Both the position numbers and the translations under genes were made by a program. The notes beneath the pieces are model-generated. The model ran no database searches. It saw only the letters and a list, made by a program, of their open reading frames with translations, and was not told where the DNA came from. 64,000 nt of DNA. It comes from Rhododendron vialii. Its lineage: Eukaryota > Streptophyta > Magnoliopsida > Ericales > Ericaceae. Positions 2,373-61,854 of this stretch are shown in pieces. Position 1 is the stretch's first letter; the number at the start of each line of letters is the position of its first letter. The DNA lies in the NCBI RefSeq assembly GCF_030253575.1, contig NC_080557.1:44530501-44594500 (forward strand), given 5' to 3'.

Positions 2373-4724
2373 TTAAAATTCTTTACACCGCCGGTGTAAA
2401 CATTTGTTTCCTCCCAATTAATTATATTGCGCCACATTGTCATGTTTTATTGATTGGGACCACTGTTTTGTAACATGGCGCAATGTAATTGACTAGGAAT
2501 TGTCCGTGCCTTCAAATCGGTATTCAACTCATATTCAATTTTGAAGGCCAAGGCCCCATTCGCAAAATTCATACTACGCAAACAAAAAGCAATAGCTCAA
2601 GTATATTCACCGGTTAACTTGAATTAGCACATAAACAAACTAACAAATTAATAGTTGTAGCGCCTGTACCTGAAGGCACTTATCGCCAGCCATTTAAATT
2701 TACAACCAATTCGACCACACCACAAATTACGGATCATAACTGGCAAAACCAACTGTAATCACAAAATCCACTTTAAACTTAATGATAATATAGCAGCATC
2801 TAGCTTTTATTCATCAAGTTTTCTAAAATCAAGAAAAGGTTAAACATAATCAGCCTTTCAATTGAATATAAAAATATAATTCCACTTCTACTAAAACATT
2901 GATAACAAAGTTGTAGATTTTCTATGCCGATGCAACCTGTCAAAAAAAATAAAAAACCCGATGGTGCTTAATTCAGTTCATATACCATTTCAATCATCTA
3001 GCAAGAAAATTTAATGTCATACAACCTGTCAAAAAATGAAGTAAACAACGGCAAACCATGACATACTGGTTTTTACATGGTACTCGCTAAATAGAGACCT
3101 CAGTTTGATTCAAAATCATCCACTATAAAAATGTAATTCCACTTCTCTTGAATCATTGATAACAAAGTTATAAAACTTTCTAAGTTTCAAGCTCTAACCA
3201 ACTCGGTATCTATTACTGGTTACTGGTTAGCCAATGCAACCTATCAAAAAAACATACGGTGTTTCATTTCATATCTGTATAACATTGGCATGTGTGATTA
3301 TTTCTTTTAGAACATCATAGTCAACTTTTGCCGAAGTTGTTTTGCAGAAAAGTTATCATGTTTATTTTCCTTTTCGTTTTCATATGTTGCTTTAGTTTTA
3401 TAAGGACTTAGTATTGGCTCAACTTATTTGATTAGCATATCACAAAGCTAGAAGTAGAGTAGAGGCAACAAATCATGGTAAACGATTATAGAAATTTGTA
3501 GAAGAGAACATGGTCATGGTTTAAATTATTGATGTGTGATCATTATTCAAACAACATAGATTTAAAAAAAAAAAAAAAAAAAAAAACAAAGTGTTCGAAG
3601 AATCATACCGCTTGAATGGCATTTTCTTTTCCCCTGTCTGTGGATGTCACCTCCTCTTTTCCCTTGCACTTTCCTCTAGGTTTTTCTTTTAGAAAGATAA
3701 AAATATATAAGGAGAATAGGAATAAAGTTACTCAATGAGGTGAACACATATGTAAGAAGAATAGGAATAGAGTTGTTCGGTGAGTTTACCTTCACCACAC
3801 GTATGTCATTTGAGGGTCCATCACGGATAACAATACTCACGTTCCGTGCTCGACGCAACTGAAATTTAAATAGTATAAAAAGATGCAAGAAAATTGTAAA
3901 GAAAAAAAAACATGCAAAAAAAAGAGAAATGAAGGATTTATTGTAGTTTGGCTCAAGATATCACAAACTGTCCTATTTCGAAGAATTAGTAACCTATTCG
4001 GAGGGAGCACATGGGTTGGAGATCATAAAGATGCCTATCTAAAAGATTAAAAAGGGACTTACATGGACAGAATTCATAATGTCATCCATGATAAATCTCT
4101 TCAAATTAGCAAGTCTGAAATAAAAGACATGAAAGTATAATCAACCAAGGTTACAATGCATAAATCCGATAGTCTTGGATTTTCCAAACAAAATGCGTGC
4201 CTGGAGGAGATATTAAAAAAGAACACATAAGAACATAGCGTATTCGCAAAAGAGAGCCAAAATGGTAAAAAAAGAATTTCCAGCATTGTATTTTCCTACC
4301 CAATCAACGGCAATTTCATTACCTCCATTATAGCATGTCAATCAACGGCAATTTTCATTACCAAATTTCCAACCCAATCAACGGCAATTTCATTACCTCC
4401 ATTATATAATGTCAATCAACTTTAATTTCATTATCAAAATTCTTCCCTTATAAATCAGTCATTATATTGTTCACCCAATCAAGTCTTTATAGTCCATAAC
4501 TAAATATAATGTCCACTCAATCATTATCAAATATTCGTTCATAACCAAAAAACATTGACCATATTGAGCAACTCAACGGCCATGATTTATGCAGAAAATG
4601 TGTGTTAAATCAAACGGTTAAGATTTATGGAGGACAAATATGTGGGCCACCACACCGTCGCTATTTGTATTATAGATTTGGATGAAACAGATGTTTACAC
4701 TGGCGGTGTGGAGAATTTATTCTC
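2373..4724. mobile_element. 2.35-kb inverted-repeat insertion with preserved empty site
   Basis: The ends are inverted copies of each other: left 'acaccgccggtgtaaaca', right 'tgtttacactggcggtgt'. The flanks (2180-2372 and 4725-4840) align in order with one continuous sequence at about 5385-5700, which reads straight through as 'gtggaacttttattgtg'. That paralogous segment is the uninterrupted site. The interior is AT-rich, holds a duplicated 'caatcaacggcaatttcatt' motif (4301 and 4375), and has no recognisable transposase. It is a non-autonomous or decayed DNA element; the superfamily is not assigned. Confidence 0.6.
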
Positions 4725-39671: not shown

Positions 39672-40925
39672 TATAAGAATTCATCCCGCCCTTTTTTGAT
39701 ACTTATGATTTCATCCTTTTAGTGTGTGAATTACCTTTTTTACCCTTTTCACTATGATATACATATATTATGTTATATTGTTTTCCCAATTTAGTGGGAT
39801 TGGATTGGATTGTTTTTCAAATTCAATGGGATTTGGTAAATTTCAATATGATTGATTACTTTTTTTCTATCATAGAATGTATTTGAGGAATCGATATTTT
39901 TAGGAATATAACATGATAAGTTGACCACATCTTTGCATTTTTTCTTCATTCTTCGAGTTGGCCAACGGAATATGGCTAAATTACCATAAAAATATATATA
40001 ACATAACATCTTCAAACCGTTACATGGTTAAATTACCATGACATTACATGGTTAATTACTTATGATTACATCCTAAAATTCTCGGCCTATATAGACAAGA
40101 ATTTTGGGATGTAAATTACTTATGATTTCATCCTCAAATTCTTGGGCTATATGGACAAGAATTTCGGGATGTGAATTACTTATGATTTCATCCTAAAATT
40201 CTTGGCCTATATGGACAAGAATTTTGGGATGTAAATTGCTTATGATTACATCCTAAAATTCTCGGCTTATATGGACAATAATTTCGGGATGTAAATTACT
40301 TATGATTTCATCCTAAAATTCTCGGCCTATATAGACAAGAATTTTGGGATGTAAATTACTTATGATTACATCCTAAAATTCTCGGCCTATATAGACAAGA
40401 ATTTTAGGATGTAAATTACTTATGATTTCATCCTAAAATATACTTATGATTTCATTCTAAAATTCTAAGCCTATATAGACAAGAATTTTGAGATGTAAAT
40501 TACTTATGACTACATCCTAAAATTCTTGGCCTATATAGACAAGGATTTTTGGGATGTAAAATACTTATGATTACATCCTAAAATTCTCGGCCTATATAGA
40601 CAAGAATTTTAAGATGCAAATTACTTATGATTTCATCATAAAATTCTTGGCCTATAATTAACCATGAAATAGTTTCATGGTAAATAGTCCAAATAATTAA
40701 CCATGAAATAATAAAAACGTATAGACATATTTCATGGTAAATGTTACAAATAATTTACCATAAAATCGAAAAGCTTGTATTACATATATGGTTTAAAATA
40801 TATAAATATATACAATTAACAGTACTCAAAGGGCAATATTGGTATTAAAAGTATGAGAATGATGAAATCATAAGTTACTATAAAAGACAGGATGAATTCA
40901 TAAGTGAAGAGGGCAATAAGGACGA
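39672..40925. mobile_element. Foldback element enclosing a 60-bp tandem array
   Basis: The sequence 'agaattcatcccgccc' plus 'acttatgatttcatc' at 39677-39715 is repeated inverted at about 40861-40905 ('gatgaaatcataagt', 'gatgaattcataag'). Everything between, including the tandem array at 40050-40660 and small inverted 'taccatgaaat' motifs, is non-coding. The outer edges are approximate. Confidence 0.6.
40050..40660. repeat. 60-bp tandem array with self-complementary monomers
   Basis: About ten units of 60 bp. Each contains 'catcctaaaattctcggcc' followed by 'tatatagacaagaattttgg', so every monomer is an inverted repeat able to form a hairpin. The spacing is exactly 60 bp for the first seven units. 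Then one unit is partly duplicated near 40440 and the phase shifts. Confidence 0.93.
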
Positions 40926-47808: not shown

Positions 47809-50800
47809 ATGGCAGAAAATGGAAACAAACCATACAAAGCCCATGTCCTAGTCCTCCCATTCCCAGCCCAAGGCCACATAAACCCCATGCTCCAGTTCTG
47901 CAAGCGCCTGGCTTCCAAAGGCCTCAAGACCACCTTTGTCAACACCCTCTTCATCTCCTCCAACACTCAACCCTCCGCCTCCTCCCTCATCTCCACCGCC
48001 ATCATCTCCGACGGCTACGACGAGTGCGGCTTTGCCGGAGTGGGTGACACCGGATCCTACCTGGCCAGGTTCCGCTCCGTCGGATCCGAGACCCTCTCGG
48101 ATCTGATCAAGAAGCTGGACGGGCAGGACCCGCGGGTGGACGGGCTGATTTACGACCCGTTCCTCCCGTGGGCCCTGGACGTGGCCAGGGAGTTTGGGCT
48201 TGTCGGGGCCGCGTTTTGTACGCAGTCTTGTACCGTGAGCAATGTTTATTACCACGTGCGTAAGGGGATTCTTAAGCTCCCGTTTGAGGAAGGGAAGGCT
48301 ATTTTGGTCCCGGGGTTGCCGCCGCTCGAGCGGTCGGAGGCGCCGTCGTTTGTTGGTGACTACGGGTCGTACCCGGCGCTTTGTGATATGCTTGTGAATC
48401 AGTTTTCGAACATTGATAAGGCGGATTGGGTGCTTTTTAATACTTTCTACGATCTAGAGGAAGAGGTACTTTTATGTCACTATGTAGCTAGTATAATGAA
48501 CCATCAAAACAACTTAGCAAAAAATCAAAAGAAATAGGCTCTGTAATCTCTATTCACCGCCTGGATTTAAATATCGGCCTCTACGTTCAGTTTTTCGGTT
48601 ATCCGATACTATTACTGTGGGTTTCTGGTTTGATTTGTAGGGCTAGGGCGGTCCCCTGGTTAGCTCTGGGTGCTCCGTTCGCCTTCCTCCGAGCGACCTG
48701 CAAGAAGTCGTCAGGGCGTCCAGCGCAACGACCCTCCAACGATCGTCTAGAAAGAATAAGGAGAGAGTACTGTTCACTAGAAGCGGGGTGCCTTGCTAGG
48801 GTTTAGTCTCCTCCTTTATATAGGACCTCCTGACTTGCTCACCAAGCAAGCACGTGCTCGGCACGTTCGGTAACCGTCGAATAAGACGGTTACCAAGCAC
48901 GAGCTGGCTCTAATGATTATGCTCGCCATGTGATGTAACTTCCTCGGCCTATGTCATGTCATGACGTACGTGACCAGACGGTTAAGTGCACATAGACGTG
49001 ATTAATGGTGTTTGAGCGATCAAGCTGATCAGAGCGATCTGTCTGCACCAGGAGGATCTTGTCTGCTTGTCGAGACCGAGCAGACTTGACCGAGCCATAC
49101 GGCCCAGTTATGGTTTGAGCCAATTATTTGGGCCACTACAGTTACACCCCGTTATATTGTTGCTACCAAAAAATCACACCTCTAATTCTATTGGCCGATT
49201 CCCTCTATGTATCGCTTCGTAGCCAATTTCTTGCCCGCTTCATGGCTGCGGTAGCCACTATGTGACCGGTACAACTAGCTTTAGGTGCTCTGACGCCAAA
49301 AAATTATTTTAAAAAATTCGCGATCCCTAAATCCAATTCAGAAATGCTATGGACAAAGAAAATTTATCCCGAAACTATTCCGAAAAAATCAACTAAAGGT
49401 TGAGATTCACTTTGATGTGTGTGATACAATCATCAAAGTGATTCTCAACCATTAATTGCTGTTTTCGAGATATTTTCGAAATAATTTTTTTTTGTACCTA
49501 GCATTTTCCAACCCAATTTCCGCTATGCATCAGTCGATACTCCCTTGACCGGTACATCAGTCGATACTCCCTTTAATTACCGCTACACTGCTACGACGCG
49601 GTCAGCTATTTGCTTTTTAAAATCTTGGTTCACTTACTTTTGTGCTATTATTAGAAAATAACGTTAGCGGTTGTACATAGGAGTATAGGACCGCCGTTCC
49701 AGACACATCTACATCTACAGCTGTCGCATTAGACCATTATTCAATTCAAAATATTATTTTCAGGTTTTAGAAACGATGTGCTGTAATATTAATATAATGT
49801 TCTTAACAAGTTGTTTCAGCATGGCTAAGAATCTTTTGTACGGAGTATAAACTTTTATCGGTTTGGTTATTGTCAGCCCATTGAGTTGACGATAATTACA
49901 CTAGAAAACAAGAAAAATACGTAATTCTGTGTACTTTTTGTATCTTTTAATACACATGCACACATTTATTATTGTCAGCCTATTGGGCTGATTTTAAATT
50001 TTTTTAACTTTTATACACTTGATATAACATGTAACCCAATATCGTGGCTCCTAATCTCAAAAATGTCATTTTAGTTTTTCTTTAATTTAAAAATAAGAGT
50101 CATAAATCATTTTAATCTTAACTTAATGGAATCTCAATCAAAATATTTATGGTATCTTAGGTGGTGGATTGGATGGCAAAACAATGGAGAATGATCAGGA
50201 CAATAGGCCCAACGATTCCATCAATGTACCTGGACAAGCAACTCCCAGATGACAGAGAATATGGACTCAGCCTCTTCAAGCCAAAATCCACCGAGTGCAT
50301 GAACTGGCTCAACACAAAGCCAGCCAACTCTGTCATCTACATCTCCTTCGGAAGCATGGCAGAACTCGAAACAGAACAATTCGAAGAAATAGCATGGGGC
50401 CTAGAAGTAACCGACTACTCCTTCCTGTGGGTGGTCAGGGACTCCGAGCGATCTAAGCTCCCCGAGAAGCTCGTGGATTTGGCGCGCGGGGAGAAAGGCT
50501 TGCTGGTGACGTGGAGCCCGCAGCTCGAGGTCCTGGCCCACGAGTCGGTCGGGTGCTTTGTGACTCACTGCGGGTTCAACTCCGTCCTCGAGACGTTGAG
50601 TTTGGGCGTGCCGGTGGTGGCGGTGCCCCAGTGGACCGACCAGCGGACGAATGCGAAGTATGTGGAGGAGGTGTGGGGGGTGGGGGTTAGGGCTGGGAAG
50701 GATGAGAGGGGGATTGTGAGGAGAGAGGTGTTGGGGGAATGCATAAGGGAGGTGATGGAAGGAGAGAGTGCGGAAGCGATTAAGAGGAATGCGGTCAAGT

Positions 50801-50892
50801 GGAAGAAGTTGGCTAGAGAGGCGGTTGGCGCGGGCGGGAGTTCGGACAAGAATATCGATGAATTTGTTGCCGAATTGATGAGTAAATCCTAG
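47809..50892 (+). CDS. UDP-glycosyltransferase, UGT74-like, two exons
   Basis: Predicted cytosolic family 1 enzyme that transfers a sugar from a UDP-sugar to a small acceptor. Related UGT74 enzymes act on carboxyl or thiohydroximate acceptors such as salicylate or auxins. Exons are 47809-48465 and 50161-50892 with a phase-0 GT-AG intron of 1695 nt; the protein is 462 aa, normal for the family. Residues seen: catalytic His23 in 'FPAQGHINPM' and probable Asp116 in 'IYDPFLPWA'. The donor box runs from Trp337 to Gln380 with 'WSPQLEVLAHESVGCFVTHC' and 'PQWTDQ'. Odd: position 22 of the box is Phe358 (codon 50575-50577), where plant enzymes almost always have Trp, and the next residues read Ser-Val-Leu-Glu. 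The rest is intact. The intron contains a probable solo LTR. Two broken relatives lie upstream in the same orientation. The acceptor cannot be read from sequence. Confidence 0.92.
48636..49140 (-). mobile_element. Probable solo LTR in the UGT intron
   Basis: On the minus strand it begins 'tgtagtggccc' and ends 'gccctaca' (TG...CA). A TATA motif ('ctatataaaggagg') sits near the middle, followed by 'ctaaaccctagc', the usual order of an LTR promoter. It is about 505 bp and much richer in G+C than the surrounding intron. I found no matching 5-bp target repeats and no internal retrotransposon region, so it is called from its ends and composition. Confidence 0.6.
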
Positions 50893-50974
50893 ATGTTTTG
50901 TGGAGTAGTAAATTACTGTTCTCAAATTCCAAGGAAGCACGATTCTTAGAAATCTCTTTTGTGTATTAGGATTC

Positions 50975-51082
50975 GTATGTATTGGTGGTTTTTAGTACTT
51001 CAATAAAATGTAATGTTTGAAGAACTTAGTATGTATTGGTGGTTTTTAGTACTTCAATAAAATGTAATCTTTGAAGAACTTA
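50975..51082 (+). repeat. 54-bp tandem duplication in UGT 3' UTR with two AATAAA signals
   Basis: The unit starting 'gtatgtattggtggttttta' at 50975 is repeated at 51029. Each copy contains 'caataaaatgtaat', so the poly(A) signal is doubled. Confidence 0.9.
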
Positions 51083-51306
51083 ATAATCGTCATCCTAAGA
51101 GGATATAATGTTATTTTTAGCAATATCTTATTCTAAATGACACAAACAAATGTATTCAACGATGATTATTATATACGACCTTAGTTTTTGTCTCGACGTA
51201 AAATAATGTTGGCTGACGAATAGAATTTGATGTTCAAAAACCCAACGTGAAAATCTTGCGTCCGTTGCGTCCCTTACGCGAAACGCGTCTGGTTTATATT
51301 TTGAAA

Positions 51307-51717
51307 CAGAAAGTCTACAGTTACCGATCGGGAAATCCCGATCGGAATCCTGACGCCCCGCCGGGCACTCTCCGGCCACTGGATGGCCGATCCGATCCGT
51401 CCAATAATTCTAAAAAAAAAAACGAGTGGGCTTTTAAAAGAATAAATGGCATCCGACTTGTGTAAGTGGCCGATCCAAGCACTCCTTTTTTGGCCGATCC
51501 AAACACTCCGTTTTTGGCCGATCCAAACACAAAAATAGAGTGCTTGGATCGGCCACTTATACATGTCGGATGCCGTTTATTCTCGCGTTAAGCCCACTCG
51601 GTTTTTTTTTTTAGAATTATTGGACGGATCGGATCGGCCATCCGGTGGCCGGAGAGTGCCCGGCGGGGCGTCGGGATTCCGATCGAGATTTCCCGATCGA
51701 TAACTGTAGACTTACTC
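51307..51717. mobile_element. MULE-type foldback element with 9-bp target duplication
   Basis: 411 bp made of two inverted arms of roughly 170 bp: left 'aagtctacagttaccgatcg', right 'cgatcgataactgtagactt'. It is flanked by the exact 9-bp repeat 'attttgaaa' at 51298-51306 and 51718-51726. The centre has three copies of 'tggccgatccaa'. It is non-coding. The 9-bp duplication with long arms fits Mutator-like elements. Confidence 0.9.
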
Positions 51718-51892
51718 ATTTTGAAAAGCCGAAAATCAAGGCCAAATTCCTATGCTAATTAATGGAAGCTGGAAACAGGAGTCCAAAAGTCTCCCATCTA
51801 GTAGTAATATTCTTTAACGACGTGACACATGAGTAAGACCATGAAATTTTATTGAAAACTTGCAACTTGGACTCTGTTTTTTGAGAGAAATT

Positions 51893-52103
51893 TTTCAGTG
51901 CCGGGTGGGCACGGGCCACGTGGTGCCGTGCACGTATTTCAACCGTTCAAACGTGTTTTGGACGGTCCAAATTTGTTTGGGCTTGAGGAGTGTTTTGGTA
52001 ATTTTACACTAAAAAATTACCCAAACAGATTTAGACCGTCTAAAACACGTTTGGACGACCAAGATTGTACTCGGCACCAAGTGACCCGTGCCCACCCGGC
52101 ACC
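51893..52103. mobile_element. MITE with GC-rich inverted ends
   Basis: Ends 'tcagtgccgggtgggcacgg' and 'ccgtgcccacccggcaccga' are inverted. The next motif, 'aaacgtgttttggacggtcc', is inverted as 'gaccgtctaaaacacgttt'. The loop is short. Confidence 0.85.
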
Positions 52104-53001
52104 GAAAAACTTCTCGTTTTTTAAACTTATACTATTTGGCAGCTGGGTGATACTACAAATTTGAGATTGCATGCCTACTCTCACTCAACCTTACTATATC
52201 CTACCTCTTCTTAAGAAGATCAGGTTTGGGGTGAATTTCGTTTGACATTTTGGCCAATTTGGACAATTGTGCCCCTCAATTGGACAGCAACAAAGCCAGA
52301 GGTTGAGGGTAATTGAGTCTATTCACTCTCTTCTATTTTGGTAATTAGGAGTTCGTTGGGTGGCAATTGAGAATGTGGCCTGGCCTTACACGTGGTTCAC
52401 ATGCGTCCAATTTCTTCCTCCACTTTACTTCTCCTCCCCGACTAAAGTACCAGCGCCATTCTTCTCTTTCCTCCTCTCTCTCTCTCCACCAGCAATCAGA
52501 CGACTAAGAATCTCACCAGCACATCTCACAGAAACCCTTCATCTCCAAGCGCCACGAATGGCCTCCTAGCCGGAGAAGAAGACTAATCCACTGCCATGGC
52601 CGCTTTCAAGCCATGGAGTACAGTGCAAATGCATGTGCAGGACCTCGATCGTGATGCATCGTGATGCAAAATGATTGGAAATCCGAACGCAATTAGGTCT
52701 TCATCATCTGGTTTATTTTTCTATATTCGTTTGATATATCTCATATCCCCCTGATTTTGCTTTACATTTGATAGATCTCCAATATACCCCTTGTTTGCCC
52801 GATTTGCATGTCTTTGTTAGTGTTAATTTTCTGGGTTTGACTTCCCCTATCTCATCACTCCCTGTTAGTCCAAATTTGAGGGTAAAGCCAGTTCCGGTGC
52901 ATTGTTCTTAATATTGATACTGCTATTGATATGTGATGACCAATTGTCACTGTTGTTTGGTATGACGATTTTGATGGGTTTTCTTTTCAAAAATGTTTCA
53001 G

Positions 53002-53076
53002 TTACGTGAAAGAAGATCTTCCCCCACATTTGGATTCTACTTCTGAACCGCCTCCCCTCTTTGATGGAACTACTCA
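53002..53076 (+). pseudogene. Lambda-class glutathione transferase exon fragment
   Basis: After a good splice acceptor ('aatgtttcag') the frame reads 'YVKEDLPPHLDSTSEPPPLF' then Asp-Gly-Thr-Thr, followed by a GT donor. This matches the N-terminal part of plant GSTL/IN2-1-type proteins, just before their active-site Cys-Pro-Phe/Tyr-Ala-Gln segment. That segment and the rest of the enzyme are missing nearby. It is a captured fragment, not a gene. Confidence 0.75.
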
Positions 53077-53262
53077 GTATACCCTTCCTTCCTTTCTCTT
53101 TGATTTAGATACATACGAATTCATATAGGCAATCCCATTTTATGGGCATAATAAAGTTTGGTTTGATTGTCACTGTTGTAGGAGCAGGTGTCTCATGATT
53201 GTAGTTGTGAACTGTAGAGCTACTTGTCATAATTTTTTAAAGCATTCTTATTTGTTGTTATG

Positions 53263-54047
53263 CACGAAATCAGAAGGCTCGATCTCAAAGTTGTGGTTGC
53301 TGGAATCTGTAAAACAATTGATAATGACATTCCGGTACTTTTTATGGCAGCCATAAACATGATGGTTTATGCTACAGAATATCAAATCCAATCCCAATTT
53401 GTTTGCTTAACTTTTGTTTGTTTACTACAGGTAATTGACAAGGCCTTTGGCTTTGATATCCCGTTGAGGAGGCTCAATGTGCCATAAATGCAGCACACAT
53501 TGAATCTGATAGTATTGAAAATGGAATTGGCCTTGTGAAGTTAATGGGTTGCTACAGTGGTAAGTTTACAGTAAAGGCCTTTTCTCCAAGTAGGCTGATT
53601 TCTTGAATTTTTACTCTGCGCCTTAGTCCTAAGATCCCTGAATTGATAGTTGGCTTCGAATGCTACGTCGTGGGAATCAAAGATTGCTTCATGACTGGAT
53701 GAAATGGTGGTGTTGCGTATGCTATCATGTTTTTCTGCATTTTTCCCTTATGTTCTTGGTTTTTGGATTGAAGAGGAAATCATTGCTGACCTGTTTTGCT
53801 AATTCATAACAATTATCTTGGTTCTACTATTTATATTTGACTTTGGCGTGACAGGGTATATTGCAATGTATGCTACTCTAGCCAGCCGAGATGTTGACTG
53901 TTGCTTGATTCCGGAGTCACCCTTTTATCTCAAAGGACCAGGTGGACTTTTTGACTACATAGAGAAAAGACATAAGGAAGACAGACACATGGTTATTGTC
54001 ATAGCCGATGGTACAGGACAACAAATTAAGGGAGTTGGAAGCATACA
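53263..54047 (+). pseudogene. ATP-dependent 6-phosphofructokinase fragment, frameshifted
   Basis: Three consecutive exons with introns preserved: 53263-53334 ('LKVVVAGICKTIDNDIP'; the family has Gly-Ile-Pro-Lys), 53431-53559 (Val-Ile-Asp-Lys-Ala-Phe-Gly-Phe-Asp, later '[15 protein letters not shown]') and 53855-54047 ('[20 protein letters not shown]'). In the second exon a one-base deletion near 53460 shifts the frame to a stop. The conserved Arg of 'MGRYSG' is Cys. The N-terminal ATP-binding half and the C-terminus are absent. Retained introns show that the copy was made at the DNA level. It is non-functional. Confidence 0.88.
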
Positions 54048-54482
54048 GTATGCATAATTTCTGACTAATTGGTAGTCTTACATTTTGCTGAAACATCAAC
54101 TCAGGTGTATCAATTTGAGGTATCATTCCCTTCTATCCCCAATCTTTGCAAGTTTATCATTTTTCGTTTACAATGTTCCTTGCATTATTTATATACATAT
54201 GTTCTTTATGGTAACTTGGCTGCTATAATTATGAACAGTTAGCTTCTTCAAGGTTCTTATGGTTTTTATTAAGTGTCGACAGTCACTAAAGACAATAATA
54301 CTACCCCAAAAATGCATGCGAAGGCTTAAAACGTCTATGGTGGTTTTGGCAATATCTTATTATTTGGTACTTCAGGGCTTGAAGAGTTGAAGCAGCTTTA
54401 AATTAGAGATCCAAATCTTAAAGAGGTCAAGTTACGACTCCAAAAAAAGATGCTTTTTGCACTACAATTATTATTTTAGTGC

Positions 54483-54644
54483 ACACTCAGTTTGTTTCAA
54501 ATAGGATAGTTCATTATCCATGTGTTTGTTCAACATGAGGTTGGTTTTATGAGCATTTGGTGTACACTCAGTTTGTTTCAAATGGGATAGTCCATTATCC
54601 ATGTGTTTGTTCAACATGAGGTTGGTTTTATGAGCATTTGGTAT
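54483..54644. repeat. 81-bp tandem duplication
   Basis: The unit starting 'acactcagtttgtttcaaat' at 54483 is repeated at 54564 with a few substitutions. It lies inside the proposed Helitron. Confidence 0.9.
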
Positions 54645-54939
54645 ATGCAAGTTTCCTATGTTTAAGCCTTCAAAAAGAAGACAACTAGAGAGTCAAGTGT
54701 AGCTGTATGAAAATTTCATATTGGAACTTAGAAACTTTTATGGTGAAAATTTCATTTGGTGTATGCAAGATTCCTCGCAATATTACATGCTTCTATTGGC
54801 ACATTTACTAAGTGATAAAATCCTACATCAAACTTCTGCAGCCTATATTTGCAAAAAAATTCAACATTTGCAAAAAAATTCAACACCGTTCAATTCAACG
54901 GGCATGATGGACGTGCTTTGCACGTCGCGATGTACCTAG

Positions 54940-56720
54940 TAGAATTTCAAGATTTACAAATGTTCGTATACATACACAGACCAGATATTGTATAATGGCC
55001 GATTCATCTCTAAAAAGCATAACAATCGATTGTGATTAGCTTATTTGGCTACCCTTTTATACTTCCAAATGGGAGGTCAAGAGGTCGATCTTTGCCGGAA
55101 ACAAAAAAGATATTTAATATTGTTTCTTCCCATGGATGCTTTTTTTTTTTTTTTCACTTTTAATTGTCTTTTAATGAGGCTATTAATTGGGTCTAGTGTG
55201 GTACTTGTGAAAACTAGAGGTATAAATGTAATAAACTCATTCGGCTCTCTATCCGCGCTTCTTCAGCGTGATCTTTTTCGTTGAACTAAACGCCGTTTGG
55301 TTCAATTCGGGATTCGCAAATTGAAAGATCAAGACTAACGAGTATCGTATAATGATCTGCGTACAAATGTATTCCGAGAGTGGACTGTGAGGCCAACCCT
55401 TGTAAATCAAAACTTGTAGATGCAAAAACGCGGCTCCTAATTGAAATTCATGGATAAATCCTTCTTTGCACCTCCACATTTTCGCACGCAACTCACTATT
55501 TACCGTTCACTCTCTAATTGTGCTAGTCGATCTTTTACACTTTTCCATCGGTGCCGATGACTACCTTCTTTACTATACATCGATCTTCCAGTTAATCGAT
55601 GACCGGGGGGGGTGCCGTTAACGGATCTCACAGGAAGAGGCAGCTTGACTTACAAATTGCATGAGAAAACATGAACCCAGCGTCTGAAACAAAGAAGCAA
55701 AGCACTTCTGATGCTTTAAAGAAAAGGAAGGGCGGAAAAAAATACATGATGTTTCATTCGCGAAAGAGAAACTATTTATGGTTCTAAGGTAGTTTCGGAG
55801 GAAAGTTAGGTAAGTTATTGACCATGCTACTATGCTAGTAACTAGCTATGCATGCAAACTCTAGATCTCACTTTCGACAGATAAAAGCCAAAATTTCCGT
55901 TTCTTTTCTTTCCCGGTTCACGAATTTGAGCAGCATGTAATAACGTTACGATGCATCCATCCTATGCGAACTCCTTAGTGTTAGGTTACCCATAATAGTC
56001 TCAGAAGCTTAAACTGCTCGAAAATGGGCCAAACAATGTAAACAAAGAGAACAAACACCCTCCAGTAAGTACAAACTCTGCCTACCATGTGGAGGTGCAA
56101 ACATGAATACATACACAAAAGCATAGTGCAAACAGCGAAGAAGAATCTGAAAAGGTAACAAACACAGACTCAGATACTTGAACCGCATGCCTCTCTAAAA
56201 TCAAATATCAACAGCCGTGTTTGGTCACCAAATTGATTTAAGAGCTAACTATGAGGAAATGAGCTCAATGATGTTTATCGAGCTATCTAACACTCGAAAT
56301 TCCTGGATAGGTGATAAAACATGGAACAGCAGTTAAAAAAAGCAACTGTCCAATTGTTGTTCCGAGTTAGACATGTCATTGATGCTTCATACAATATGCA
56401 CACATGCATAGCAGTACTAACGACACCAACGATAGTAGCAACAGCCAGGGACACACTAACCCTCAAATCAAAGATGAAACTGGTAACTGGAAATGAAATT
56501 ATGAAAGATTTAATCAAGAAAACTGTACCTGTCAAAAATGGTATAGCCATATGATCAGATATAATTGAGTGTTAGAGAGCACCTTTCGAAGGATATAAAT
56601 GAAGAAAAACCGTACCTGTGAAAAATGGTATAACCATATATGATCTAATATAATTGAGTACTAGAGCAGCTTTCTCCAAAATTGAAGAGTCAATATCAAC
56701 AATGAAACAAGCAAGCTATA
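54940..56720. other. Gene-free spacer downstream of the BIR1-like gene
   Basis: No gene is recognised. A tandem pair of about 87 bp ('gtacctgtcaaaaatggtat' at 56525 and a similar unit at 56612) lies at 56516-56670, close to the 3' end of the kinase gene. Confidence 0.5.
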
Positions 56721-56726
56721 AACATT

Positions 56727-56733
56727 TTTATTT
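56727..56733 (-). terminator. Likely poly(A) signal of the BIR1-like gene
   Basis: The minus strand reads 'tttaaataaaaatg' about 75 nt after the stop codon. The AATAAA hexamer is exact. Confidence 0.5.
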
Positions 56734-56803
56734 AAACAACACCAACAACAGATAATTACACATAATTTATATCATCTTTCACCATTCACCTACCCATACC
56801 ACC

Positions 56804-59716
56804 TTAATGGCTCTCTATTACTTCTCGGGCAACAATAAGCTCTTCTAGATAATCAGCATTACTAGTGTCTGATGCCATCAAAATATCGTCATCCATTGAG
56901 AAATGGTACCGCTCACCTATAGCTCTAAGAAGCTGGTACACCTCAAACATAGTTGGCCTCTCCTTGGCAGCCGGAATTACACAGCTACACGCAACTTTAA
57001 GAAACTGGAAAAGCTCACCATCGTAACCCTTTCCAGTCAAAGTATTATCAATGGAATCTTGAAGCTTACCGTTGCTGGAAAGTTGTGTAATCCATTCCAC
57101 TAAGTTTCCCTTGAAGCTTTCTGGGGCTTTGGCCACAAATGTAGGCCTCTCACCAGTCACCAGTTCAAGAAGCACAACCCCAAAGCTGTAAACATCACCT
57201 TTTGGAGTGGCCAAAAGAGTTCGTGCATACTCAGGAGCCACATAACCCAAATCACCAAACTCCCCATTTACGAAAGTACTCAAGTGAGTGTCAACTGGGT
57301 TCATGAGCCTAGCAAGTCCGAAATCAGATATCTTGGGCTCATAATCCGCATCCAATAGAATGCATTTGGAACTTACATTTCGATGAATTATACGGGGATT
57401 ACAACTATGATGAAGCCAAGCAAACCCTTTGGCTGCCCCTATCCCAATTTTGAGCCTCAAAGGCCAGTCCAATGATTTGTCGCCTTCGTTCACAAGCTGT
57501 AGCCGATCATGGAGGGTACCATTTGGCATGAACTTATAAACCAAAAGCCTCTCTTTCTTAGCCACACAAAAGCCTAACAGGGGAACCAGGTTACGGTGCT
57601 TCACGTTTCCTAGAGTGGCCATTTCGGATGCAAATTCTTTCTCAGAGTGCTGAGTATCCTGCAACCTCTTCACCATGAGCGACGTCCCATCTTCAAGCGT
57701 TGCCTTGTACACTGTTCCTGTTCTTCCTGTCCCAATAATGTAGTCTTTGCTGAAGCTGTTAGTAGCCTTCATGAGATCACTTAGTCTCATTTTCAAAACC
57801 GACTTCTCAAACATGGAAAGCTGCATATTAAAACACTATTCAATACAGTATACCTTAATTTTTTGTTACAGCCAATACGGAAGTAGAAAACAAAATGGAG
57901 GTCCTAAGAAGCACAGACATGGACCCAAAAAATGACAAATACATGGGACACGGAAACTAGAAAACATGCGCGAGCGTGCAGCCACACATATAGTTCTTTT
58001 TCAAATCAACATTGAATCCAGAAGCAACCAAAAAGTAGTATGGTAGTGTTCGGTTGCCATTTCATTTTTAGTTTTAGTTTAGATTTTAATCATTACCCTA
58101 TTTCTTTATCCAATTATTACCCTATTTATCCAATTATTACTTTCTCATCTCTTTCTATCTCTCTCCAATCATTACCCCTCTCTTCAATCATTACCCTATT
58201 TCTCTCTCGACCCACTACCAAAACTAAACTAAATTAAACTCACAACCCCCCATTATAATTTTCACTTCTTGGCTTTTGCTATTTAGTTACTATGCGAGGA
58301 TTTTATCACTTTGAAGTTTGAACCTTTTCTACTTTTTGGCTATTGTTTTCTAAACATTATGATTGGATCCAAAGACGTTCAGTCTGGGTATAAAAGTTGG
58401 TTAGTTTGTTGAATTAAATGATACTCCAGAGGGTCAATCCTCCTCCTGGAGTGACTTCGGTCTGAGACTGACTTATATTGCAGGAATAGATTGATTGTCA
58501 AAAGGCCCCTGAAGAAAGTCTCCTGGGTAGGAGATCCATTTAAAGAAAAGAATTTCTCTCTTTAATGGACTTCCTTGAAGGACGGATAGAGCATGATTTT
58601 GGATTGGATTATGTTCTAGTGTTTGTTAGGAGTTAGGACCCCTAAGATTTAAAATTATAAATCGACCCATGTCATGCCTCCGCTCGTACTAAACTTAATA
58701 CATGCATGTCTCCAAGCATGTCCCCGGTGAGATCCTTGCTTAACAGGGAATAAAATTCATTGGACACGCCACACGGCATGTCTGTCCCCGTATTTCCAGC
58801 CTACAAAGTGTCAGTAAGTTACAAAATATAGCTATACATTAAACCAACTTACCTTAATGGCTTTGGCTCCCTTTAGACTCTTTGCCCATTTATTTCCATC
58901 AGGGTCATCTTCCTTCTTCTTTCTAGACACCCTGCGCATATAGAAGAACATAGCAATAGCCACACCTAATGCCGCAATAGTGACCCCACCAACAGCGGCT
59001 CCCACAAGGACTCCAGAGTGAGGTTTCTTCGACACACCCTGGCAATTGGTCAAGGGCTTACCACATAGACCTGCATTATTCGCGTAGTTCTCAGCTTGAA
59101 TGGAAAAGTTGAAATTGGGAACTGGTCCACTCAAAAGATTGTTTGCTGCACTGAATGACTTGAGCCGACTAAGGAGGGCAAGCTCCAAAGGAATTTGACC
59201 ACTCAACTTATTGCTGTCGAGTTTAAGGACATTAAGATAAGTACAATTCGCCATGTCCTTAGGGATCTCTCCCGAAAAATTGTTGGAGGAGAGATCAAGA
59301 GTCGTCACATATGGGAGTATTTTTGAAAAGTCCGATGGAATAGTTCCATAGAACTTGTTGCTGGAGAGGTCTAGGCCTGTGAGGGCTGAACAATTTTGAA
59401 GGCCGCGTGGAAATTCACCCTTGAGCTCCATGTCAGAAAGTCGAATATTTAAGACCTTGCTCTCTTCGGGGTGCCAGCAGTCAATCCCAGTGAATTTGCA
59501 GATGAAGCCCTCCGTGACATTGTTGAAATCCCATGAGCTTAAATAATTGAAGGGGTCTTCCAAGGAAGCTTTCAGAGCCTTCAAGCAATTTATATCACTC
59601 TCAAGACCATAGCTGAAGCTACTAGTCAGCATCAACCAGATAAAAGTATATATAAGAACAGTCAGAGCTCCGGTATTGACTGATATCTTCATGAAGAAAA
59701 CCATCATATGCTCCAC
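56804..59716 (-). CDS. BIR1: BIR1-like LRR receptor pseudokinase, two exons
   Basis: Predicted plasma-membrane receptor-like protein. Arabidopsis BIR proteins bind BAK1 and hold back immune and cell-death signalling. Exons 59716-58853 and 57820-56804 with a phase-0 GT-AG intron (1032 nt); 626 aa, close to Arabidopsis BIR1 (about 620). Residues 1-37 are a signal peptide with clustered Met, so the true start could be Met1, 4, 5 or 9. An LRR N-cap ('[20 protein letters not shown]') and about five LRRs follow ('[20 protein letters not shown]'). Then come a transmembrane segment ('[20 protein letters not shown]') and a kinase-like domain. The Gly-rich loop is '[11 protein letters not shown]', the Lys is in 'LMVKRL' and 'DFGLA' is kept. 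The catalytic HRD is His-Arg-Asn ('[14 protein letters not shown]'), so the catalytic Asp is missing, as I recall for Arabidopsis BIR1. The symbol is by similarity and gene order. Confidence 0.93.
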
Positions 59717-61048: not shown

Positions 61049-61854
61049 GGACGCGGGGGCTCTGCTGCCCGGGGGGCGCAGCAGCCCCTACCCACTCTCT
61101 TTAAACGGCACCGTTTCTATTAAATAAAAAATCTCAACCACCAATTTGCAATCCTATGGAGCAGAAACGTGATTATGAGAGCTTTAGAGACAAAATTTGA
61201 TTATGTCTCTTTAGAATAATATGATCAGAATAGTAAGATCTTCACACCCGTTCAAACAAATTAAAAATTGGACCACTTAATTTTTTAACCATATTTTTTA
61301 ATATATAAACGGTCTAAAAAAATTATTGCTCAAATTTTCACTCCGATTGAATCGGTACAAAGATCTTGTTATTCTTGTCATATTATTCTAAAGGGTCATA
61401 ATTTATTTTTATCTCTAGGGCTCTCATAATCACACTTATGCTCCATAGGATCCTAATAAAGAATATATACTTAATATGAGAGCCATAAAGATAAAAATGA
61501 ATTACGACCCTTTAGAATAATATGATAAGAATAACAAGATCTTTGTATAGATTCAATCGGAGTGAAAATTTGAGCAATAATTTTTTTAGACCGTTTATAT
61601 ATTAAAAAATATGGTTAAAAAATTAAGTGGTCCAATTTTTAATTTGTTTGAACGGGTGTGAAGATCTTACTATTCTGATCATATTATTCTAAAGAGACAT
61701 AATCAAATTTTGTCCCTAAAGCTCTCATAATCACGTTTCTGCTCCTTAGGATTGCAAATTGGTGGTTGAAATTTTTTATTTAATAGAAACGGTGCCGTTT
61801 AAAGAGAGTGGGTAGGGGCTGCTGCGCCCCCCGGGCAGCAGAGCCCCCGCGTCC
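61049..61854. mobile_element. 806-bp near-perfect foldback element with 9-bp target duplication
   Basis: The two arms of roughly 390 bp mirror each other almost base for base, from 'ggacgcgggggctctgctgc' at the left edge to 'gcagcagagcccccgcgtcc' at the right edge, with only a short loop around 61440-61470. It is flanked by the exact 9-bp repeat 'cattcacac' (61040-61048 and 61855-61863), which fits a Mutator-like foldback. The outer about 45 bp are very GC-rich and the rest AT-rich. It has no coding capacity. It sits a few hundred bases upstream of the probable BIR1 transcription start. Confidence 0.95.

Follow-up and report, generated by a model that had tools for sequence, protein, structure and literature searches.

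How did pieces of two unrelated genes, a lambda glutathione transferase (GSTL) and an ATP-phosphofructokinase (PFK), come to lie joined on one strand at 52199-54939 of the window, the whole 64-kb stretch of plant DNA analysed here (C1:44530501-44594500)? The initial annotation proposed a Helitron-like element that had captured both fragments. The locus is a non-autonomous Helitron of 2741 bp on the + strand, a genuine rolling-circle transposon flanked by A (52198) and T (54940). Its termini recur in many copies with unrelated flanks, its interior is a mosaic with mapped borders, donor-type gene loci are present elsewhere in the genome, and the PFK piece has a non-gene tail in common with other Helitrons.

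The 3′ end consists of a hairpin at 54910-54926 (GACGTGC-TTT-GCACGTC, a 7-bp stem with a 3-nt loop), a 9-nt spacer and CTAG at 54936-54939, with T as the next base. End criteria for Helitrons are given in passages of PMC2267711 and PMC2575219, and structural criteria with their false positive rates in part of PMC6591975; a GC-rich hairpin 10-15 nt ahead of the 3′ end is present in the element, the stem finishing 13 nt from the terminus. By structure alone such an end is only moderately unusual. When the 64 kb were shuffled 200 times with dinucleotides preserved, loose criteria recovered at least one hairpin and CTAG-type end in 15.5% of the shuffles, which makes structure weak evidence in isolation; narrower criteria, chosen after the site had been seen, give 1.5% of 200 shuffles. 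The 3′ end is settled because copies across the genome share it. In the genome of the window itself (532,647,506 bases or 532.6 Mb, 13 contigs), a 106-base query of the 3′ end matches at least 40 other places, the best 40 of 90 candidates having been scored. In 21 of the 40 listed matches the last matching base is the T that follows CTAG (query 101), and 39 of them end at query 99-106, from two bases before to five after this T.

Alignment of 21 such ends, the window and 20 fetched copies, places the border precisely. For each copy the border was set at a CTRR-like position near the expected one, CTAG being preferred and the following T playing no role in the choice. Pairwise identity is 86% over the last 40 bp and 32% over outside bases 2-40, so that within this genome the likeness stops at 54939. 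A lack of other copies with this 3′ end, named initially as a refuting outcome, is contradicted by the 40 matches. The first base outside is T in 21/21 copies, the terminal four bases are CTAG in 18, CTAA in two and TTAG in one, and 19 of the 21 retain no fewer than six of the seven stem pairs. The hairpin and CTAG-T end proposed initially is thereby confirmed both by the sequence and by the copies.

The 5′ end had been guessed at 52199, and this base proves to be exact. The element starts TCCTACCTCT, and approximately its first 85 bp (52199-52283) are common to the subfamily. In a search with 52110-52330 (best 40 of 46 candidates scored), 34 of the 42 other matches listed start at 52191-52199. 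The 5′ ends of the 20 fetched copies were sought in the 6 kb upstream of each and were picked by TCCTACC near a BLAST start, 12 of the 20 being set aside; in the remaining eight TCCTACC begins at the counterpart of 52199, and identity outside is 29%. Both ends are thus present in nine copies including the window, and the base preceding them is A in 8/9 (7/8 without the window). A list built on 34 of 43 5′ rows and 41 3′ matches, window included, gives 17 same-strand pairs of 5′ and 3′ ends less than 25 kb apart among the matches listed. A 5′ TC and a 3′ CTRR are therefore termini common to independent copies, which insert between A (before 8/9) and T (after 21/21). Alignment of copies, suggested at the outset as a way to fix the 5′ terminus and to find empty AT sites, achieved the first; of an empty site there was no sign, the two flanks of the element, brought together, matching only themselves in the genome.

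The interior of the Helitron is a patchwork of a leader, the GSTL fragment, a filler, the PFK fragment and a third segment. The CT-rich leader at 52199-52840 (+) is common to three elements at 84-89% identity (C6:26.82 Mb, C2:34.84 Mb and C5:11.44 Mb) and is therefore Helitron subfamily sequence and not a GSTL promoter. It is followed by the GSTL fragment (52865-53167, +), which comprises the end of intron 1, exon 2 and the start of intron 2; the part at 52865-52883 was assigned by eye, and about 30 bp of the C5 gene are absent after 52883. The partial exon claimed at 53002-53076 is upheld: its 28-residue peptide gives phmmer matches to the lambda glutathione transferase chains 4pqh (E 1.8e-5) and 4pqi (E 1.1e-4), with no match in Pfam or NCBIfam. 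Only exon 2 is recognised in the element, no GSTL promoter or first exon being discernible.

Searches for the parental genes, as initially suggested, yielded a donor-type locus for each fragment. For GSTL this lies at C5 36.29 Mb, where 52884-53167 (284 bp) aligns at 92.8% identity; in this partial comparison exon 2 of the locus is open and exon 3 is present as well, with more GSTL-like stretches 10-55 kb off. The same 284 bp are also about 92% like three places on C2. These hold approximately 900 bp of the GSTL gene and, 0.9 kb farther, a Helitron 3′ end 76% like that of the window, and so appear to be a further element that carries a longer stretch of GSTL. With gap columns excluded, 11 sites favour C2, 12 favour C5 and seven unite C2 and C5 against the window. 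The C2 places (L049, L050 and L051, at C2:10.91, 10.82 and 10.74 Mb) are near-identical Helitron-like copies spaced by about 84 kb, two of them 100% identical over 3284 bp; this repetition is either a large segment duplicated recently or a product of the assembly.

A 22-bp filler (53168-53189, +) separates the GSTL and PFK pieces. The start of the filler and the two bases that precede it (53166-53179) duplicate a 14-bp stretch of GSTL intron found at 52943-52956. None of 2263 control positions reaches 14 nt, the longest repeat being 12, in a control that leaves out tandem repeats and both repeat sites; without this filtering 91/1000 reach 14 nt. The repeat at the junction suggests that the joint may have been made by template switching or filler-forming repair.

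The PFK fragment (53190-54020, +) is 831 bp of an ATP-phosphofructokinase gene with its introns kept. Exon A runs to 53334, exon B covers 53431-53559 and exon C begins at 53855, and the introns at 53335-53430 and 53560-53854 are bounded by GT...AG. Partial exons in the same orientation as the GSTL exon, with introns retained and with both genes truncated, had been described from the start and stand; the extent then given for PFK, 53263-54047, gives way to that of the homology to the gene. A single ATP-PFK model is matched by three stretches in succession (positions 200-226, 229-261 and 261-318), each falling under its whole-protein cut-off, as expected of fragments; two of these stretches match Pfam PFK as well, again under cut-off. 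At C3:32.67 Mb lies the donor-type locus, which matches the fragment and shows six collinear stretches against a second PFK locus on C7, in a comparison that covered parts of both. A retrocopy is ruled out by the retained introns.

Besides the gene, three places on C7, C3 and C8 match 53190-54104 at 87-89%. These are copies of one 7.2-kb element (L039, L040 and L041), 92-96% alike over long blocks, which starts TCCATCCTCC and ends with a hairpin and CTAG followed by T. Among the matches listed for the 3′ end (best 40 of 51 candidates), 25/39 others stop at query 95-96, query 95 being the T after CTAG, and 35/39 at 94-100; for the 5′ end (best 40 of 101), 29 of 45 others begin at query 15-24. 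Since each end recurs elsewhere in the genome, the 7.2-kb elements are Helitrons of a second subfamily, the 5′ end of which differs from that of the window subfamily while the 3′ end is partly similar. They hold more of the PFK gene upstream, so that the window piece is a subset.

What ties the PFK piece to the second subfamily is an 84-bp tail (54021-54104, +) adjoining it. It is 90-92.5% identical to sequence beside the PFK piece of the three second-subfamily Helitrons, compared with 29% to the gene, and occurs nowhere else in the genome among the first-look candidates, all of which were scored (12/12 and 11/11). Up to 54020 the window is 89.3% like the gene and 88.0-90.2% like the second-subfamily copies, and in 798 gap-free columns 38 sites unite the window with the Helitrons, 29 the window with the gene and 36 the Helitrons with the gene. 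These near-equal distances argue against close descent from any present copy and call for a lost intermediate; the case for a common source consequently depends on the tail and not on overall identity. The PFK pieces of the window and of the 7.2-kb Helitrons probably go back to one source, and a transfer between Helitrons may have been involved.

The near-equal distances would also be accounted for if the donor to both subfamilies had been a third PFK copy, rearranged and already bearing the tail. No such locus was found in this genome, where the tail matches the three Helitrons only among the candidates scored, which makes this origin possible but rather unlikely. A direct and independent capture from the gene, with the likeness to the second subfamily reflecting the same donor, is disfavoured and quite improbable. 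It would fit the equal resemblance up to 54020, the 29 sites at which the window agrees with the gene against all three Helitrons, and the splice acceptor ahead of exon B, which is intact as in the gene; it leaves unexplained why window and Helitrons have the same tail after the same break inside an exon, a tail that is missing at the gene locus. The original claim of gene capture holds as regards donor-type loci on C3 and C5. Direct capture of PFK is improbable; since the piece and its non-gene tail are common to Helitrons of another subfamily, this capture may have been indirect.

Other cargo is also common to the two subfamilies. At two loci with the window-subfamily 3′ end, L018 and L027 (no 5′ end was located for L027), about 0.5 and 1.6 kb of other interior sequence are 89-90% like the second subfamily. 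Conversely, a stretch carried by second-subfamily elements (3358-3502 of the C7 element) resembles 3′ subterminal sequence in some elements of the window subfamily, and exchange may therefore have run both ways. A wider proposal, finely balanced and leaning slightly towards doubt, is that subfamilies with different 5′ ends trade interior cargo, Helitrons acting as a relay in which later captures are made from Helitrons and not from genes. With the common tail, the spread of gene fragments between Helitrons can be tested directly, and the sharing by L018 and L027 makes the relay question testable genome-wide.

Downstream of the tail, 54105-54281 gives two weak matches only (78-79% over about 75-80 bp). 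The third shared or captured segment (54282-54822, +), an addition to the initial two-fragment picture, is also found in pieces at C4:26.67, C9:13.69 and C3:1.07 Mb with 80-92% identity. On C9, 2.5 kb separate the copy from a window-subfamily 3′ end that follows it downstream on the same strand. One frame of the segment has no match in Pfam or PDB, and no gene of origin was identified. An 81-bp tandem duplication within it (54475-54642) appears private to the window, because both query pieces map to overlapping bases at the other three places.

With a probability of about 0.9, the whole is explained by a Helitron that would have moved by rolling-circle copying from its 5′ TC end, with a stop at the hairpin and CTAG, and that would have inserted between A and T. 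Its interior would have been put together in steps, other DNA being added during copying or the repair of breaks: a leader as in sister elements, the lambda GST fragment, the ATP-PFK fragment and the third segment. The PFK source would be common with the 7.2-kb Helitrons and would most simply be an ancestor of those elements. Rep/helicase proteins supplied by other Helitrons would mobilise the element in trans; such mobility is one of three steps, with the direction of transfer and the repair mechanism, that we infer. The genome has 95 Helitron Rep stretches, and one of these, with one stop codon, lies by its coordinates between same-strand window-subfamily ends 17.8 kb apart on C2. None of the 95 falls inside a 16.4-kb end pair on C6, and ten open stretches of six sister elements have no Pfam match at E 0.01.

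Judged from the reading frames, we conclude that the GSTL and PFK fragments would be passengers, because the PFK frame is broken and GSTL is recognised by exon 2 alone. A chimeric GSTL-PFK gene under selection, to which the common orientation and the preserved PFK intron borders might point, is very improbable: the leader belongs to the Helitron subfamily, a recognisable GSTL promoter and first exon are missing, exon B is one base shorter than in the gene, and two residues read from the alignment are altered relative to the gene, C standing in place of P ahead of KTIDND and in place of R within MGR. Chimeric transcripts are described for maize in part of PMC4528327, and a co-transcribed GSTL-PFK RNA, which had been envisaged here, could be made but is a candidate only. 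As a whole unit, a Pack-MULE (a class with a 9-bp target duplication), another inverted-repeat transposon or a plain filler or segmental duplication is refuted, even though plain break repair would also fit the GSTL/PFK filler, since Helitron-type ends are common to dozens of places and long terminal inverted repeats are missing, as first noted, with none at the ends or flanks above the shuffled level (21/50 shuffles equal the best match).

The element fits known Helitron gene capture and goes little beyond it, namely in the non-gene border common to two subfamilies. Maize gene-capturing non-autonomous Helitrons, in the sections of PMC3288121 that treat stepwise capture, likewise have TC...hairpin...CTAG ends between A and T, several unrelated gene fragments and short shared termini with fragmentary internal homology. 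Unlike the maize elements described there, the window has one piece common to two subfamilies with different 5′ ends; its ends do not fit the maize HelA/HelB patterns, which find neither of them. The filler-DNA model, which explains insect Hel1 elements in the relevant passages of PMC6544945, offers a similar stepwise internal acquisition with short junction signatures. It differs from the present case in that the window filler duplicates part of the captured fragment next to it and in that the host is a plant. In Helraiser/Helibat the hairpin is treated as a terminator (passages of PMC4778049); unlike there, the interior pieces of the window would not be explained by 3′ read-through alone. 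No paper was found uniting Helitron, Ericales and 'gene fragment', and the sole match for Helitron, phosphofructokinase, glutathione and captured was, from the part retrieved, a mite genome survey. The phrase 'between Helitron families' is absent from the excerpts of the matches listed, and transfer from Helitron to Helitron is not claimed here as unreported. Gene shuffling of this sort is instructive and mostly known; the present map describes a plant Helitron at the base level, with most interior pieces and borders traceable in one genome.

Around the element, 49000-58000 holds no Rfam match at gathering score, and there was no match in the plasmid collection. The genes of the window are plant-like and include a formin, a UDP-glycosyltransferase and an LRR receptor kinase. 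The UDP-glycosyltransferase gene (47809-50892) apparently has two exons, and the best solved relative of its first part is UGT74F2. Diverged duplicates at 19026-21091/32231-34254 and 25395-25757/36160-36522 are gene-like and 79-85% identical; by eye their frames recall acyl-CoA thioesterases, with no match in Pfam (four frames), NCBIfam (three) or PDB (one). Two fold-back (palindromic) MITE-like repeats lie just upstream of the Helitron (51308-51716 and 51885-52115), and a further fold-back of about 800 bp, 95% like its own reverse complement, is found at 61049-61854. A satellite-like array occupies 40051-40656, its copies offset by multiples of approximately 60 bp.
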